Shown: positions 10,976-21,554 of the stretch, one piece after another
How the letters are laid out: each line of letters begins with the position of its first letter
Position numbering within the stretch: the first letter of the stretch is position 1
Source: a virus
IMG/VR virus record: IMGVR_UViG_3300009159_000348
Coordinates: 1 to 22,492 of that record
DNA length: 22,492 bases
Reading direction: 5' to 3' (one strand)
The notes under the pieces: model-generated
What the model was told of the DNA's origin: nothing
The model's input: only the letters and a program-made list of their open reading frames with translations
Database searches by the model: none
Program-made: the position numbers and the translations under genes

Positions 10976-11998
10976 CTAGTAGTGATAAGGTGTGCGGTCG
11001 AGCGGTGCGTCGAGGTCGTCGTTCATTGGGTAGTATTGCGCCTCCTCCATGTATTGAATTTGATCGACTAGGTCATAGATAACATTAGCAATCTCGTCGG
11101 GCTTGGCACTTTTAACCCATTTCAACATTGACTTATAATCGGTATATAGTAGATCATCATAGGTCGGGAGATCGTGCGACATGGTGCGATTGTGTGCGCC
11201 GTAAAATGAATATAGTGGACGCGGTTCGGGTTTTCTGACAATCGGGAGGGCTTGGCGTTTCCAATCATAAGCGAGGATTGTGTCCCTCATTCGTAGGACG
11301 TGCGCCGTGTCTAAAGTTTCCGCGCTTGTGTGTTCTGACTGATAGCCTATCGAGATATTAAGACACTCGGGGACTAGGTGCGCATATTCCGCCGTGTCTG
11401 TATATATGCCCGTTGTGTCGAGTTGGAAGTCTTTACCGAATAGCTTAATTAATGCGTGGCCTAGTTCATCACTCGCGCACCTGTCGCCTCGTTGGTGTGT
11501 GATGATCGAAGTTGTCCCGCGTCTATCAAACGCGACCGCGTGTGTAAATTGTTTTATATAGTCGGCATGAAGTTCTGCGATCTGCGACGAACCCCACCCC
11601 CCGCGCTCCTCGCCTCTGTGGAATATATATGTCCCCTCAACGTCGGCGTCGATCATTTCAAGAAGTAAGAAAACCCCCGCGCCGTCGTCCGCGCCTAAAC
11701 AATCGGACGCTTGATCTACGAACGCCGTCCCGAAAGTATCTAGGAAAACTTCTTGCGTGATAAGTTCGGGCGTTGAGTTGTGCATGGTGTCAATGTGCGC
11801 ACTCCATAAAATGTTCGTCTTGGCTTTTTTGTTGTGGTTGTCGTAGATATAAGCGAGTGTTTCGCCTTCCTCATTCTTTAGCGTTTTGAAGTCTTTGAAA
11901 TATGCCTCTATAAATTCACGTTCGCCCTCGCTTTCATGTTGGCGTCTGTATGTAAGAATGTTTAATAGTCTGTCGATTGGTTTATTAATTGTTTTCAT
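10976..11998 (-). CDS. clan MH zinc metallopeptidase (M20/M28/M42-like)
   Basis: 340-aa protein with the metal-binding plan of co-catalytic zinc exopeptidases: H68 and D70 in WSAHIDTMH, D104 in CLGADDGAG, E130/E131 in HRGEERGGWGS, D158 in VAFDRRG and H223 in GYQSEHTSAE. All expected ligands and the catalytic Glu are present, so it should be an active aminopeptidase, carboxypeptidase or amidohydrolase; the substrate cannot be told. No signal peptide, so it acts in the host cytoplasm. The C-terminal 90 residues (RKPEPRPLYSFYGAHNRTMS onward) are an extra tail outside the catalytic core. It is the last gene of the G+C-rich leftward operon and overlaps the 633-aa gene by 14 bases. Such peptidases are unusual in phage genomes. 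Confidence 0.85.
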   Translation of the reverse strand: MKTINKPIDRLLNILTYRRQHESEGEREFIEAYFKDFKTLKNEEGETLAYIYDNHNKKAKTNILWSAHIDTMHNSTPELITQEVFLDTFGTAFVDQASDCLGADDGAGVFLLLEMIDADVEGTYIFHRGEERGGWGSSQIAELHADYIKQFTHAVAFDRRGTTSIITHQRGDRCASDELGHALIKLFGKDFQLDTTGIYTDTAEYAHLVPECLNISIGYQSEHTSAETLDTAHVLRMRDTILAYDWKRQALPIVRKPEPRPLYSFYGAHNRTMSHDLPTYDDLLYTDYKSMLKWVKSAKPDEIANVIYDLVDQIQYMEEAQYYPMNDDLDAPLDRTPYHY

Positions 11999-13886
11999 TT
12001 TGTTGTTGTCCTTGTTGGTTGGCGTCTATTGCGTTGTTTAATATTTCAAACACGGGCGCGAGTGGTTCGGGTTGTGGTTCTTTTAATGCGTCGGGGTATT
12101 CTATAATCTCTATTTCGTCCTCCGATTTCTCGCGGTCAATCTCTGCTTGTAAGTCTTTCGCGTCGTCGGTGTGGCACGTTGTCCCGTCGCTTAATTCGTG
12201 GACGTCGTCCTCGTGTGCTGATAGGTTGCCGTCCGCGTCCTCGTGGTCTATGTCCTCCACTAAATTAAAATAAATAAAACCGCGTAAGGTCATAACGAGG
12301 TCGTCTATGTGGTAATAGTCGCCCGTTTCCTCACAAGCATAAATATCATGCGCGGATAAATCGCAGTCCTCATGGTATGCGTCATCATTCGCCCAAATAA
12401 CGTGATCGTGGTGAACGTAGTCTTGAGTATTGTTATTGATCCAAGCATAAGAATAATTATTATCACAACAATGTCGGCATATATAGTCGCCGTGATGCGT
12501 GTAAGTCATATCGTCGTTGTGTTCCATGTCCCCGCAGTCGTCACACTCGCTCTCGTCCTCGTCCCGCACGTCGTCCGTCCAGCCGTTCGTCATGGTCAAA
12601 CTTAATTCGCCATGCGTGTTGATCTCAATATAAGTGTTGTTGTCGATGTCCACAAGTTCGCCCGATTGTGCCGAACCCTCCGAGCCGTTGCCGTTCACTC
12701 CCGCGTCGATATAAGGTGCAACAAAAATGTCGTCCTCGTCCTCATGCTCGATCATCTGCAATAAACACCCGTCGAGGTTGCCGTGAGTGTATCCGTTGGC
12801 TTTTAAATATTGTTGGAGGTATTTGCCCTCCGTTGAGCCGTTGGCGTCGGGATAAATTCTAACGTATTGTTTCAAGTCCTCCCGCACGATGCAACGCGCG
12901 AGTATGTCGCCCGACTTACTTTGAATATATGCCAAGCGTATCACCGATTTGTCATGCGCATAAACTCGGACGGCGTCCTCGCCTTTCATACATGAACCCG
13001 CCAAACAATCGCGGTATATGCGGACGAACCCGTCGGCGTCGGTGCTTTCAATGTATTTTACTTCCCAGCCCGTGCGACTTGCCACGATTGCGTTATATTT
13101 CTCGACGGCGTCCTTGATCTCTGTTTCTGTTATGCCGATGAAGTCCTTGAATGATGTTAAATACTTGCCTAACTTTGTGACGACCTCGCGCCCGTCCCTT
13201 AAATGTTTTAAAGTCGGATAGTGTGCTATCTGTAGAGGGTTCATTAAACTGACGTGGACGCGGTGCAAGTTGAAAAGGTAATCTAATGCCACGAATTGTT
13301 CGCCTGTAATGCCGATCGCGTTCCAATTCATGTGAACCCACTCACCGCCGTTAAATTCTTGATCGATCTGTTTAATGCGCGGTTCGAGTTTGTCCCGCAC
13401 CTTGTCGAGTTGTTCAATGCGCTTTATATATTCACAAGCGCGGAGGGTGTAGTCGAGGTTCTTGCGTTCCTGTTCTACGTCGGGAGGGTTGCGCACGTCG
13501 CTTATCGTTTTCGCGAGTGTTGCGCCGTTGATTTTGTAATAGGTTTCCGTCCCGCCTTGTGCGTAATAGTCCGAGCGTGAATATCTACTTTTGCGGAGTT
13601 GTTGGCGTTTCGCTCTGTCGTCTTTCTCGAGTTGATATTCTAAAAAAAAGCGGACGTTATTTGATCGAGCGTTTTTTAAATAGAGGTGCGTTTCCGCGCA
13701 GTCGTTCGGCGTCGGGTTAAATAGTTGCAATCGTGCCATAAACTCTTGATCGCTTACCGCCGAATAGATGTCCCTATATCTTAAAAGCGCGGGGGGTTTC
13801 GGCGTGTTCAAGTTGTGCATAGTTTCTATTATGCGTTTGTAGTCCGCGCCCGTTTTGTTTTGTTGGATTGTTTTATTCACGTTCAT
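11985..13886 (-). CDS. large acidic Cys/His-rich protein with possible zinc ribbons
   Basis: 633-aa protein, the second largest in the window. The N-terminal half is helical and basic. Around 287-350 a conserved-looking block runs FVRIYRDCLAGSCMKGED, then VYAHDKSVIRLAYI, ILARCIVRE and YVRIYP; the 'SCM...vRvYa...Lay...aR.i....yvRiY' layout recurs in large uncharacterised phage proteins I have seen but cannot name. Residues 440-600 are strongly acidic and hold C448, C451, C470, C473, C474, C508 and C518 with many His (THHGDYICRHCC, VHHDHVIWANDDAYHEDC), consistent with two or more zinc ribbons. The tail is Pro/Gln/Asn-rich. It overlaps both neighbours by 14 bases, so it is tightly co-expressed with the peptidase. 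Confidence 0.8.
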   Translation of the reverse strand: MNVNKTIQQNKTGADYKRIIETMHNLNTPKPPALLRYRDIYSAVSDQEFMARLQLFNPTPNDCAETHLYLKNARSNNVRFFLEYQLEKDDRAKRQQLRKSRYSRSDYYAQGGTETYYKINGATLAKTISDVRNPPDVEQERKNLDYTLRACEYIKRIEQLDKVRDKLEPRIKQIDQEFNGGEWVHMNWNAIGITGEQFVALDYLFNLHRVHVSLMNPLQIAHYPTLKHLRDGREVVTKLGKYLTSFKDFIGITETEIKDAVEKYNAIVASRTGWEVKYIESTDADGFVRIYRDCLAGSCMKGEDAVRVYAHDKSVIRLAYIQSKSGDILARCIVREDLKQYVRIYPDANGSTEGKYLQQYLKANGYTHGNLDGCLLQMIEHEDEDDIFVAPYIDAGVNGNGSEGSAQSGELVDIDNNTYIEINTHGELSLTMTNGWTDDVRDEDESECDDCGDMEHNDDMTYTHHGDYICRHCCDNNYSYAWINNNTQDYVHHDHVIWANDDAYHEDCDLSAHDIYACEETGDYYHIDDLVMTLRGFIYFNLVEDIDHEDADGNLSAHEDDVHELSDGTTCHTDDAKDLQAEIDREKSEDEIEIIEYPDALKEPQPEPLAPVFEILNNAIDANQQGQQQNENN

Positions 13887-14247
13887 TTAATGCCTCGCTT
13901 TCGTTTTTGAGTTCGTCTAGGTCTTTTGAATTGATCGTTAAAATGTCGGTGTATTCGGTCACGTCGTTTTCTACCAAGTTGAAAAGGTGCGCTTTTCTTT
14001 TGGCGACGCCGTCGCGTAGGTTGTTCTCTAGGTTCTTTGTCGCGTGGTGCGCGTTTGCCATGTCCGCCTTTGTTGGCTGATAGTAAAAGACAAACTTCAC
14101 TCCATGCCCGTTTATTGTGCCGTCGATGATGTTCACACTCTGCGCGGTGGGTTTCATGACCTCGTAGGCTTTTTGTGGGCGGAGTTGGTTTCGTAAAATT
14201 TCTATTGCGTCATGGCGTTGTTGCGCTTGGGTTGGTGTGGTTTTCAT
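13873..14247 (-). CDS. hypothetical protein
   Basis: 124-aa protein. A central beta segment (NIIDGTINGHGVKFVFYYQP) lies between a helical N-terminus (QQRHDAIEILRNQLRPQKAY) and a long charged C-terminal helix (ITNSKDL-like DELKNESEALNE region). No family recognised. ATGA overlap with the gene upstream and 14-base overlap with the 633-aa gene downstream. Confidence 0.7.
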   Translation of the reverse strand: MKTTPTQAQQRHDAIEILRNQLRPQKAYEVMKPTAQSVNIIDGTINGHGVKFVFYYQPTKADMANAHHATKNLENNLRDGVAKRKAHLFNLVENDVTEYTDILTINSKDLDELKNESEALNERE

Positions 14248-14489
14248 TTTGTGCCTTTCGTGAGTTGGTTTAATTTGTCTTGAAATTCTTGAAGCATAAG
14301 TTCGGCGTCGTAAACTCTCGCGCCTGTGGTTTCGTCCATGTAAAAATAAATTTCCTGTTCGATCACGTCAAAGTCCAAAAATCGCGCGTCGTCGTCGAGG
14401 TTGTGTTCTATTTTCATGTTCTGCGCGGTTCGATTAACGTAGGCGTCAAATTCTTTTTGATTTTTGAACGGGGTTTCGTTGGTTTCCAT
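14244..14489 (-). CDS. hypothetical acidic protein
   Basis: 81-aa acidic protein beginning METNETPFKNQKEFDAYVNR, with DARFLDFDVIEQEIYFYMDE and a C-terminal amphipathic helix (AELMLQEFQDKLNQLTKG). Soluble, no known motif. It lies three bases from the 66-aa possible HTH gene and overlaps the next gene by ATGA. Confidence 0.7.
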   Translation of the reverse strand: METNETPFKNQKEFDAYVNRTAQNMKIEHNLDDDARFLDFDVIEQEIYFYMDETTGARVYDAELMLQEFQDKLNQLTKGTK

Positions 14490-14492
14490 TTT

Positions 14493-14693
14493 TTATTGTC
14501 CTTTGTATTGAGTTTTGATAAAAAATTCTCGCGTTGTTTGTTCTACTTGTGCAATTGAGAGGCGTAGTTTGAACGCGGTTTCATAAGTGCTATTAAAAAG
14601 CAGAGTTGAGAGAATAACGCGCTCGGTTATGTTGAGCGCGTCGGGTTGTTTCAATGCCCGTTCAATTCTCGGGCGTAGGTAGTCGAGGTTCAT
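14493..14693 (-). CDS. possible GerE/LuxR-like HTH protein
   Basis: 66-aa protein. Residues about 20-60 (NITERVILSTLLFNSTYETA, then FKLRLSIAQVEQTTREFF) follow the spacing of a GerE/LuxR-type HTH: 'LT.rE..vL..L..g.s..eiA..L.lS..tV......'. The fit is by eye and the usual glycine in the turn is replaced, so this is suggestive only. If right, this is the only likely DNA-binding regulator of the second leftward operon, and it could act at the dyad sites near 10733 and 10850 or at its own promoter. Confidence 0.6.
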   Translation of the reverse strand: MNLDYLRPRIERALKQPDALNITERVILSTLLFNSTYETAFKLRLSIAQVEQTTREFFIKTQYKGQ

Positions 14694-14695
14694 TT

Positions 14696-15004
14696 TTAGC
14701 CCCTATATCCGAGATCGGAAAGGTCATTTTTAAGTTGAAATACTGCGCGTTGATATTGCGAGTGCTTGGTTGTTGTTTTGTGGTGTTCGTCGTGCGCGTC
14801 TGATGTTTCAATGTCATAAGCGAGGTTGTTAAGTTTAACCGCGAGTTCGATTAAAACATTGTGGTCGTGCGAGGTGTCTTGTGTGAACGTGGGGTTTTCT
14901 GCCATGACTTCGTCGATCAGTTTCCAAAAGACGTGGCGGACGCCGTTATCGAGTGACGTTCTTATGACTACTTGATCTATCGTGTAGGTGGGTTTCATGT
15001 TCAT
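14696..15004 (-). CDS. hypothetical protein, first gene of the peptidase operon
   Basis: 102-aa soluble protein beginning MNMKPTYTIDQVVIRTSLDN, with a His/Asp-rich centre (TSDAHDEHHKTTTKHSQYQR). No recognised domain. AAAGG lies about six bases before the ATG at 15004; a second ATG two codons in is possible. It is the first gene behind the putative promoter at 15050-15078. Confidence 0.7.
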   Translation of the reverse strand: MNMKPTYTIDQVVIRTSLDNGVRHVFWKLIDEVMAENPTFTQDTSHDHNVLIELAVKLNNLAYDIETSDAHDEHHKTTTKHSQYQRAVFQLKNDLSDLGYRG

Positions 15005-15820: not shown

Positions 15821-16165
15821 TTAGATAGCTTTAGGGTCGAAGTTGTAAAGCTCGGAGTAAACATCTTTAATACGCATGAATTTAGCCCCGTGTTGATCAA
15901 AGTCATCATCGCCTCGAACGTAGAGAGCTAAGTGAACCATTTCATGGAGGAGGGTTTGAAAAATAGTGATGAAATGACCACAAGAACCAGAACTTATTTC
16001 AATAGCCATGTCCACTTCGTCAAAACAGCCATATATAGTAGGGTTTTTGATAACACGGAACTTAACTTTGTCCGACTTAGGCATAGGAAGTCTATTAAAG
16101 GGCGGCAATTTACACGCCATGTTGTATAAAATCTCTAAATTCTTCTTAGTCAACGTAGTTTTCAT
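15821..16165 (-). CDS. SprT-like zinc metalloprotease
   Basis: 114-aa protein with the SprT/Spartan-like active site: TLLHEMVHLALYVRG carrying H74-E75-x2-H78 and the third ligand H92 in DQHGAKF. It is a minimal catalytic domain without the zinc-ribbon C-terminus found in bacterial SprT. Eukaryotic Spartan removes DNA-protein crosslinks; the phage protein's role is unknown, with covalent DNA-protein complexes or host factors as plausible targets. It stands alone, leftward, opposite the terminase genes and 96 bases from their start. The basic linker KPTIYG...FDEVDMAIEI-type strand before the helix fits the family. Confidence 0.85.
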   Translation of the reverse strand: MKTTLTKKNLEILYNMACKLPPFNRLPMPKSDKVKFRVIKNPTIYGCFDEVDMAIEISSGSCGHFITIFQTLLHEMVHLALYVRGDDDFDQHGAKFMRIKDVYSELYNFDPKAI

Positions 16166-16261: not shown

Positions 16262-16903
16262 ATGAACGACCTAAACAGTCAACAAAATCAATCAGATAAC
16301 TCTGATCACGACGTTTCTTACGTAATTATGATGCCCAACATCGATGAGGACGTCCCTTTGCCTAAAAATCCTAAAGATGCTATGCCTGAACTAGGTATGG
16401 AAGAAGAGTTACAGGTTAGAGTTGAGACAGTTAAGACCATAGCTGATCTAAAAGGTGAACCTATTCCTGATGCTAGCCCGGCAGAACAACAAAAAGCAGT
16501 CGACTTTGTTAAAAGAGTCATGACAGATCCCAACTTTAAACCTGAATATGGTACATACACCGATCCTACGATGGCATTTTGTGCAGGTATGGTAGCTCAG
16601 ACACAGGTACTACTCGCAAAGGAACTAGCAGACTATAAACTCTATGTAGTTAACAATTTAATCAAGGTCATAGAGACAACAAAGAATCCTAAAGAGAAGA
16701 CAACAGCATTAAGAGCGTTAGGCGAGGTTGATGGTGTAGACGCGTTTAAGAAGAAGACTGAAGTGACTCACAAGATGGAGTCGATGGAGGAGGTTGAGAA
16801 AGAACTTCTTACTATGTTAAACGACTTCAAGCAAAAAGGACTCATGAAGGAGCCAGCGCAGACAATAGATGCAGAAGTGATAGAAGATAAAACAGATGAG
16901 TGA
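16262..16903 (+). CDS. probable terminase small subunit
   Basis: 213-aa protein directly before the large terminase, overlapping its start by 8 bases. The central region (PAEQQKAVDFVKRVMTDPNF, then AFCAGMVAQTQVLLAKELAD and EKTTALRALGEVDGVDAFKK) is helical, and the acidic C-terminus (IDAEVIEDKTDE) resembles the tail by which small terminases contact the large one. The assignment rests mainly on position and character; no clear N-terminal HTH is seen. AAAGGTG lies rather far (about 14 bases) from the ATG, so a later start (e.g. 16325 or 16328) cannot be excluded. Confidence 0.7.
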   Translation: MNDLNSQQNQSDNSDHDVSYVIMMPNIDEDVPLPKNPKDAMPELGMEEELQVRVETVKTIADLKGEPIPDASPAEQQKAVDFVKRVMTDPNFKPEYGTYTDPTMAFCAGMVAQTQVLLAKELADYKLYVVNNLIKVIETTKNPKEKTTALRALGEVDGVDAFKKKTEVTHKMESMEEVEKELLTMLNDFKQKGLMKEPAQTIDAEVIEDKTDE

Positions 16904-18434
16904 GGAAAGGCTAACCCCAGAGAAAGCCGCGGAGTTAATGCAGATCATTCCACATCTGGATGATAACAAGAAGAGAGTAGCACTAGCGAAGTTAAGAGTG
17001 TTTAAGAAGAATTGGGTACAAGAACACGGTAAGGATAGTTTTCTAGACTTTATTATGCACGTGTATCCAGGTTACATGATAGGAGATCACCATCGAAGAT
17101 TGGCTAAGATATTTGAAGAGATTGCTAATGGCAAGAAGAAGAGAGTTATCGTTAACATTGCTCCTAGGCACGGTAAATCGGAGCTTATTTCATATCTTGC
17201 GCCGGCATGGTTCCTTGGTAAGTATCCACACAAAAAAGTTATTATGGCATCTCATACAGCTGACTTGGCAGTTAACTTTGGGCGTCGTGTGCGTAACCTC
17301 GTGGGTAGTGACGCTTATAAAGACATTTTTCCACAAGTAGAACTACAAGCAGATAGTAAATCAGCATCACGATGGGGGACAAATTTTAATGGGGAATATT
17401 TTGCTATTGGTGTGGGTGGTGCCCTCGCTGGTCGCGGGGCTGATTTGTTTATCATTGATGACCCACACTCAGAACAGGATGCTAAACTTGGACGATCTGA
17501 TGTATTTAAGCCTGCTTGGGAGTGGTTTCAGTCTGGCCCTTTACAACGTCTTATGCCTGGCGGTGCGATAATTGTAGTCATGACTCGGTGGTCTAAGCTT
17601 GACTTGACGGGTGAAATTGTAAACCAAATGGTTAAGAATAACGAAGTAGATGACTGGGAGGTCGTAGAGTTTCCAGCAATATTGACGGATAAAGACGGAG
17701 AAGAACGTAGCTTATGGCCTGAGTTCTGGCCACTAGAAGAATTAAAAGCTAAGAAGGCCGCGTTAGATATTAGGTATTGGAACTCACAATACTTACAAAA
17801 CCCAGTATCAGAAGAGGGCGCTCTAATTAAAAGAGAGTGGTGGAAGATATGGGAAGGAGAAGATCCTCCTAAGTGTGAATTCACAATTATGACACTAGAC
17901 GCTGCTCAAGAAGCTAATAACCGTGCTGACTATAATGCACTAACAACATGGGGTGTCTTTTTTAACGAAGAAACCAATAACTATAATATAATACTATTAA
18001 ATGCAATTAAGAAACGATTAGAGTTCCCCGACTTAAAAGAGCTTTGTATACAAGAATATAAGGATTGGGAGCCTGACGCATTCATAGTAGAAAAGAAATC
18101 TAACGGAGCTGCACTCTATCAAGAGGTTAGACGCATGGGCATTCCTGTTGGTGAATTTACACCAGGTAAAGGGCAAGATAAAATTAGTCGTGTAAATGCA
18201 GTGTCAGATTTGTTTAGAAGTGGTATAGTGTGGGCTCCAGATCATAGATGGGCGCATGAAGTAATTGAAGAGTGTAATGACTTTCCAAGTGGAGCGAATG
18301 ACGACTTAGTTGACGCGACAACACTTGCACTGATGAGGTTTAGACAGGGTGGCTTTATTAGGTTACCTAGTGATGAAGAAGATGACGTGGTATATGGGAT
18401 TCCAGGTCGTGGTAAAAAATTATACGCAATATAG
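16896..18434 (+). CDS. terL: terminase large subunit
   Basis: 512-aa packaging motor and headful nuclease. ATPase domain: Walker A-type APRHGKSE (89-96), Walker B LFIIDDPHSE (D188/D189) and coupling motif VVMTRWS (227-233). Nuclease domain (RNase H-like): D335 in IMTLDAAQE, E399 in FIVEKKSNG, and D470/D473 in ANDDLVDATT. All motifs are intact and the length is normal. It cuts concatemeric DNA and drives it into the prohead through the portal encoded next. The start lies within the end of the small-subunit gene. Confidence 0.97.
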   Translation: MSEERLTPEKAAELMQIIPHLDDNKKRVALAKLRVFKKNWVQEHGKDSFLDFIMHVYPGYMIGDHHRRLAKIFEEIANGKKKRVIVNIAPRHGKSELISYLAPAWFLGKYPHKKVIMASHTADLAVNFGRRVRNLVGSDAYKDIFPQVELQADSKSASRWGTNFNGEYFAIGVGGALAGRGADLFIIDDPHSEQDAKLGRSDVFKPAWEWFQSGPLQRLMPGGAIIVVMTRWSKLDLTGEIVNQMVKNNEVDDWEVVEFPAILTDKDGEERSLWPEFWPLEELKAKKAALDIRYWNSQYLQNPVSEEGALIKREWWKIWEGEDPPKCEFTIMTLDAAQEANNRADYNALTTWGVFFNEETNNYNIILLNAIKKRLEFPDLKELCIQEYKDWEPDAFIVEKKSNGAALYQEVRRMGIPVGEFTPGKGQDKISRVNAVSDLFRSGIVWAPDHRWAHEVIEECNDFPSGANDDLVDATTLALMRFRQGGFIRLPSDEEDDVVYGIPGRGKKLYAI

Positions 18435-20920: not shown

Positions 20921-21115
20921 ATGATAGACCCAACGCTTGAGCTATTAATCAGTAAGATAGCTGAAAGACGCAAAGAAGTATTAGGTTCAATTGCTGAAGG
21001 TTCTGCGAAAGATTACGCGCATTACCAATCTGCTGTCGGATATATACGGGCTTGTGATACGATACAAGGCATTATTGCTGACATCGTAGACAGGATGGAG
21101 AACTCAGATGAGTGA
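20921..21115 (+). CDS. small structural-module hypothetical protein
   Basis: 64-aa all-helical acidic protein beginning MIDPTLELLISKIAERRKEV. GGAG lies six bases before the ATG (AAAGGAGTAGTAAATG), a strong site. It lies between the portal and the co-chaperonin and overlaps the latter by 8 bases. The pattern (helix, SAKDYAHYQSAVGYIRACD, helix) is seen in small genes next to phage portals; role unknown, possibly an assembly factor. Confidence 0.8.
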   Translation: MIDPTLELLISKIAERRKEVLGSIAEGSAKDYAHYQSAVGYIRACDTIQGIIADIVDRMENSDE

Positions 21116-21554
21116 TCAAATTCTAACCATGAATAAAGATTTGGTAGATGCAGATGGTCGACCAATTCATATCCCAACAGTTGATAATGTAGAAGCAGAA
21201 GACATTCCAATTGAAGAACGGGGTTTACAGTTACCTGAACCAAAAGGATATAAAATTTTATGTGCTATCCCAGATGCAGCAGAAACGTATAAGGGCGGTA
21301 TTGTAAAAGCCGATTCAACTAGAACTATAGAAGAACATTCAACTGTAGTTTTATTTGTAGTAAAAGTAGGTGACTTAGCTTATAAAGATGAGACTAGATT
21401 TCCTACAGGTCCATGGTGCAAAGAAGGTGATTTTGTTTTAACGCGTGCATACGCGGGCACTAGATTTAAAATTCACGGAAGAGAATTCCGCATTATTAAC
21501 GACGACACAGTTGAGGGGGTTGTAGAAGATCCTCGCGGCTATACTCGCGCATAA
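21108..21554 (+). CDS. GroES-like co-chaperonin
   Basis: 148-aa protein. Residues 45-140 match the Cpn10 fold: PKGYKILCAIPDAAETYKGG opens the first strands, GGIVKADSTRTIEE is the GroEL-binding mobile loop, and KEGDFVLTRAYAGTRFKIHG and INDDTVEGVVEDP are the later strands. The first 44 residues are an extra N-terminal arm absent from bacterial GroES. Phage GroES-like proteins (such as T4 gp31) help host GroEL fold capsid proteins, which fits its place between portal and scaffold genes. GGAG lies seven bases before the ATG. Confidence 0.88.
   Translation: MSDQILTMNKDLVDADGRPIHIPTVDNVEAEDIPIEERGLQLPEPKGYKILCAIPDAAETYKGGIVKADSTRTIEEHSTVVLFVVKVGDLAYKDETRFPTGPWCKEGDFVLTRAYAGTRFKIHGREFRIINDDTVEGVVEDPRGYTRA

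Follow-up and report, generated by a model that had tools for sequence, protein, structure and literature searches.

The virus record IMGVR_UViG_3300009159_000348 comprises 22,492 bases and was analysed over its whole length, referred to here as the window. Between positions 15004 and 10976 it displays six leftward open reading frames (ORFs), separated by gaps of 2 and 3 nucleotides (nt) or overlapping by 4, 14 and 14 nt. The last two encode the pair of proteins considered here, an acidic protein of 633 amino acids (aa; 13886-11985, minus strand) and a 340-aa metallopeptidase (11998-10976, minus strand), the 3' end of the former gene overlapping the start of the latter by 14 nt. The 633-aa product and its homologues were designated SCM proteins. 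The four preceding genes, all on the same strand, encode proteins of 102 aa (15004-14696, the first gene), 66 aa (14693-14493), 81 aa (14489-14244) and 124 aa (14247-13873). An initial annotation of this DNA had described six tightly coupled leftward genes, and their ORFs, coordinates and spacing were as it claimed: the six-gene leftward operon at 10976-15004 is real.

The operon is followed by an intrinsic terminator hairpin (10953-10933, minus strand) with a 7-bp stem and an energy of -14.5 kcal/mol, which was equalled by none of 200 shuffles (z -5.4) and was letter-for-letter identical in all four relatives. Patterns of this class were not over-represented in the window (nine found versus 7.9 expected), and it is conservation in relatives, rather than the pattern class, that makes this hairpin convincing. 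The promoter proposed at the other end (15078-15050, minus strand) is a sigma-70-like TATACA-17-GATAAT arrangement with an additional TG, which matches at 9 of 12 positions. Promoter-like sites were frequent in the window, however (26 found versus 15.1 expected), and the region did not align in relatives, where no conservation was seen; it was retained as a weak candidate for these two reasons.

Gene neighbourhoods were gathered with a peptidase alignment, which yielded 80 viral contigs, and separately with SCM alignments in which the peptidase was not used, which yielded 33 loci; both searches were seeded from clade members and some of the contigs are closely related to each other. An SCM protein was found near the peptidase in all 79 testable contigs, on the same strand and within 170 nt in 77 of them, while the sole failure among the 80 concerned a peptidase starting 86 nt from its contig end. 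In the opposite direction, a peptidase lay downstream on the same strand in 33 out of 33 loci, with 0.4-1.1 kb between the two genes in a few cases. The initial proposal of a link between the two large genes was thus borne out both ways (79/79 and 33/33), across phage families and plasmids.

No third gene was shared, the next commonest neighbour family being present in only 15 to 17 of about 100 loci. Among contigs of the clade, the 124- and 66-aa genes were kept, the 81-aa gene was rare (near-identical contigs and one 65 % relative) and the 102-aa gene was seen only in near-identical contigs. Conservation of the 124-aa protein was confined to the clade of the window itself. The 66-aa product, initially considered a GerE-like helix-turn-helix protein, displayed no family match, and searches of Pfam, PHROGs and NCBIfam did not support this designation. 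The widely conserved unit is two genes (SCM and peptidase), not six; the idea of one joint unit applies to the two large genes and does not extend to the 124-, 66-, 81- and 102-aa products, which are conserved at most within the clade.

The SCM and peptidase distance matrices of 90 non-redundant pairs were strongly correlated (Mantel r 0.90, permutation maximum 0.07), also when restricted to distant comparisons (r 0.83), showing that the two proteins diverge in step; median identity over these pairs was 22 % for SCM and 34 % for the peptidase. The distant peptidases of Thermus phage P74-26 and Lactococcus phage phiQ1 displayed no evident SCM neighbour, and the pairing rule is therefore limited to the PHROG 4191 clade and does not apply to all phage M28-like peptidases. 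Two loci (L143, 4938-7015, and L144, 890-5684) each displayed two SCM-type regions, as if the partner had been duplicated or split.

The peptidase scored marginally above threshold against Pfam M28 (2.1e-4, 21.5 bits versus a cut-off of 21.3) and matched PHROG 4191 (1.6e-66). Its best matches in a profile search of the PDB were peptidase T structures 3gb0 and 3rza, and by sequence it is closest to PepT/M28. Residues H68, D70, D104, E130, E131, D158 and H223 (active-site span 11330-11797, minus strand) were invariant in 90/90 pairs and also in a wider set of 18 sequences including the Thermus and Lactococcus phage homologues. From knowledge of the M28/M20 families, we take these seven residues to form the binding site of two metals and to provide the general base. 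As read from this alignment, the five metal ligands and the catalytic Glu of family M28 and clan MH (HxD, D, EE, D, H) are all present, and the protein is predicted to be an active, metal-dependent exopeptidase, in agreement with the complete peptidase announced initially. With PHROG 4191, Pfam M28 and peptidase T (M20B), the window peptidase shares all metal ligands, the Glu acting as general base and the motifs around them. In contrast to M20/PepT, it is devoid of the lid or dimerisation domain (its residues 137 to 175 bridge PepT residues 151 to 301) and comes with a dedicated partner. Recent acquisition from a host was not supported, because it is closely related to phage proteins and because all testable peptidases of the clade have a phage-type partner; it is a member of a phage family.

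The pair was found in phages of Klebsiella, Vibrio, Pectobacterium, Escherichia, Shigella and Rhizobium and in four bacterial replicons. Annotated carriers include Rhizobium phage Pasto, Pectobacterium phage PP16, Klebsiella Drulisvirus and Vibrio phage VP93. By tblastn, the peptidase was retrieved in 367 annotated records and the SCM partner in 310, with nearly the same numbers in Klebsiella (230 versus 231) and equal ones in Vibrio, Escherichia and Shigella. The shortfall concerned mainly Pectobacterium, in which the partner has diverged beyond the reach of BLAST and is recognised by position and motif. Carriers in the plasmid collection were the conjugative Sphingopyxis plasmid pMC4, Limnohabitans pTEGF4, Methylobacterium pVL1_2 and Shinella, the last with the peptidase found and the partner counted for presence. 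Plasmid pVL1_2 (L160, 3487-12636) harbored two sets in tandem duplication, ordered SCM-SCM-peptidase and then SCM-peptidase. Exceptions were a Bradyrhizobium plasmid with a shortened SCM protein and no peptidase within the stretch read, and one bacterial genome (L156, 223-2382, minus strand) with a 719-aa protein in which the SCM core is combined with another C-terminal region.

This distribution bears on a role in nutrition, in which the exopeptidase would complete the degradation of host peptides for phage protein synthesis and the SCM protein would help by an unrelated route. The nearest cellular relatives of the peptidase, tripeptidases of the PepT kind, would suit such salvage, which is nevertheless improbable in our opinion as it leaves unexplained the constant presence of SCM in the clade and the copies on plasmids.

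As for genomic context, the pair precedes the primase in Autographiviridae, in a region described as part of the early region (PMC6115819). An ArdA-like antirestriction gene lies directly upstream of the pair in phage Pasto, and in Sphingopyxis pMC4 the pair adjoins ParB, toprim, HEPN and Abi (abortive-infection-type) genes. These contexts, few in number, fit a role at first contact with the host. According to Pfam, flanking genes were mostly without family, integrase, resolvase and primase-helicase being among those that appear, and PADLOC defence-system models matched none of the operon proteins.

Both homologues in Klebsiella phage fHe-Kpn01 (L148), gp12 and gp13, were detected together with gp14, the product of the adjoining early gene, by liquid chromatography-tandem mass spectrometry in purified particles, in which the neighbouring replication proteins primase, helicase and DNA polymerase were not detected (PMC7291057). 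This could indicate that the virion packages and injects both proteins, which would then act ahead of early transcription. Such packaging has little probability: the same preparation held RNA polymerase, nucleases, terminase and endolysin (PMC7291057), making carry-over likely, and the pair is also found on a conjugative plasmid. Since other non-structural proteins were present as well, the proteomic data were taken as evidence of expression, not of packaging.

SCM proteins matched no Pfam, NCBIfam or PADLOC model. They matched PHROGs 6980, 13313 and 23053, all listed as of unknown function; these contain the SCM protein itself and are catalogued as separate families, whereas the SCM subgroups tested formed one family according to hhalign (E 1e-40). 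The model of the full protein (predicted local distance difference test, pLDDT, 80.7) has an N-terminus that is helical and variable, followed by a core and a C-terminal region of hairpins, both of which were predicted with confidence. The core (residues 183-440; 12567-13340, minus strand), consisting of a GNAT-like half as predicted and an N-terminal GKYL segment, was modelled with AlphaFold2 from 80 sequences with high confidence (pLDDT 90.7, predicted TM-score 0.72). Its elements follow the order b1-a1-a2-b2-b3-b4-a3-b5-b6-b7, which is that of GNAT, with a loop carrying a conserved P-Y-x-D in place of helix a4, and of the 50 top PDB matches in Foldseek almost all were GNAT-superfamily enzymes, among them the aminoacyl transferases FemX and L-PGS. 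The core is thus predicted to have a GNAT-like topology, resembling Gcn5, RimI, FemX and L-PGS in strand and helix order and in most of its best fold matches.

Residues C299, M300, Y309, R331, P391 and D394 were invariant in 90/90 sequences. The first two are part of Ser298-Cys299-Met300 (12987-12995, minus strand), position 298 being Ser or Thr in 90/90. Beyond the core, C448, C451, C470 and C473 (12468-12545, minus strand; conserved in 90, 81, 81 and 85 of 90, respectively) form a Cys4 zinc-ribbon-like site with weak LIM/RING-type profile matches, and acidic hairpins follow the core. A sequence search for other phage proteins displaying this zinc and acidic domain gave no match. PcfJ (PF14284) had been considered as a relative of the core on account of weak viral fold matches and a similar Cys-Val/Met pattern, and was rejected (hhalign probability below 1 % against a weak profile of three PcfJ sequences).

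Strict pairing and intact active sites point to one strongly selected function across distant phages and some plasmids. We tentatively regard the SCM protein and the peptidase, with somewhat less than even confidence, as an early, cytoplasmic two-protein system that edits proteins or peptides for host takeover. The SCM core, with its GNAT-like topology, would be the catalytic or ligand-binding part and the acidic zinc domain would bind the target. The SCM protein would probably acylate or aminoacylate this target and the peptidase would remove residues from it. Both would act on a single peptide or on the same end of a protein, one by addition or activation, the other by removal. The outcome would be a host protein redirected or a host factor disarmed; host-protein remodelling or counter-defence, as suggested in the initial annotation, is an inference here as it was there. 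As the acetyl-CoA loop is absent, aminoacyl or acyl transfer would be likelier than plain acetylation.

Several observations weigh against this reading. The GNAT acetyl-CoA loop (Q/RxxGxG/A, between b4 and a3) is lacking, no Gly being invariant or nearly so across 80 sequences, and no PDB fold match of the core reached E <= 0.001, TM-scores being 0.44 at most. Comparison with profiles of the GNAT, LPG-synthase and Leu/Phe-transferase families was negative, as were the positive controls: known GNAT-fold families likewise missed each other in the same setting, which makes the comparison uninformative on GNAT ancestry. The literature yielded no experimental work on the activity of the SCM protein or of the peptidase. 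The SCM core further differs from GNAT in its PYxD loop replacing helix a4 and in its invariant Cys-Met. Because the fold matches are non-significant and the acetyl-CoA loop is unconserved, GNAT was considered here a lead at the level of fold, and not a membership.

The same observations can be turned in favour of the main rival explanation, according to which the SCM protein is not an enzyme and serves as an adaptor for substrates: the domain with the zinc site and the acidic hairpins would capture particular host proteins or peptides and present them to the peptidase. Strict pairing, gene overlap, the Cys4 site and the large, very confidently predicted acidic region at the C-terminus would all suit an adaptor, and so would the lack of a conserved acyl-CoA loop and a GNAT likeness below significance. 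At about 22 % identity, however, the invariant Cys-Met, Tyr, Arg and Asp resemble an active site more than a binding scaffold, and the adaptor seems doubtful to us, if a serious candidate.

Editing by transfer and proteolysis has a precedent in phiKMV, whose GNAT Rac provokes cleavage of the alpha subunit of the host RNA polymerase (PMC7552054). As a GNAT-type phage protein that is expressed during infection and brings about the breakdown of a host protein by proteolysis, Rac matches what is proposed for the SCM protein. Rac differs in that it is predicted to be a canonical GNAT with a pocket for acetyl-CoA, in apparently using host proteases and in being devoid of a dedicated peptidase partner. 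A narrower form of the editing proposal, rather unlikely as it stands, would be an undescribed two-component system of phages and plasmids in which a GNAT-fold transferase that has an invariant Cys and no CoA loop attaches a group to a protein terminus or peptide, and in which its dedicated exopeptidase reverses or completes this modification, setting the fate of the host target.

A second comparison concerns the amidoligase, ATP-grasp and amidotransferase clusters of LUZ24-like phages, which are likewise early phage enzymes building or modifying peptides (PMC3890496). One phage protein with an amidoligase annotation is similar to the SCM model in part; unlike those clusters, the pair has no conserved amidoligase or ATP-grasp gene next to it. 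The theme of these clusters, together with the occurrence of FemX- and L-PGS-type aminoacyl transferases, which have a GNAT fold, among the top structural matches, would be compatible with chemistry on a small molecule or peptide metabolite, the SCM protein extending a peptide that the peptidase trims or degrades, for instance neutralising a host signal or an antibiotic peptide. With no biosynthetic or transport genes conserved alongside, this is hardly probable, and editing of a host protein or peptide remained the preferred reading.

No description of the peptidase-SCM pair was found in the literature covered, from which subscription journals were mostly missing. The components are already catalogued; what appears not to have been described before is their link, together with the plasmid copies, the GNAT-like core and the residues that are invariant in SCM proteins. 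Although the pair is present in hundreds of sequenced phages, the annotation of the partner is "hypothetical" or "putative structural". In the easily grown Drulisvirus and other Autographiviridae, the pair constitutes a defined two-gene target for finding a new phage-host interaction.

The operon also stands out in base composition, as initially noted, windowed G+C and G+C at third codon positions (GC3) being in agreement. G+C was 0.45-0.50 over the operon versus 0.31-0.42 for most of the remaining window, and GC3 was 0.51-0.57 in five out of six operon genes (0.42 in the 66-aa gene) versus 0.20-0.43 in other genes of the window. According to GC3, the raised G+C is a codon effect. The same contrast was displayed by near relatives and not by every pair-carrying phage, and is therefore a property of the clade of the window.

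The window terminase (16896-18434, plus strand) was about 50 % identical to those of 023Pt_psg01, DSL-LC04, HTVC027P and HTVC023P, which, judged from this one protein, places the virus near aquatic phages 023Pt_psg01 and DSL-LC04 and Pelagibacter phages HTVC027P and HTVC023P. Other genes of the window encode a SNF2-type helicase, a PDDEXK nuclease, an endonuclease VII-like protein, a family A DNA polymerase, a cell-wall hydrolase, a portal protein and, in the late region, a GroES-like co-chaperonin (21108-21554, plus strand; Pfam Cpn10 7e-5, PHROG 3188). A second terminator-like hairpin (15119-15107, minus strand; -7.3 kcal/mol, z -2.6) is located just upstream of the operon. Also upstream and on the same strand, a 114-aa SprT-like protein (15821-16165, minus strand; Pfam SprT-like 7e-6) is highly conserved in the clade.

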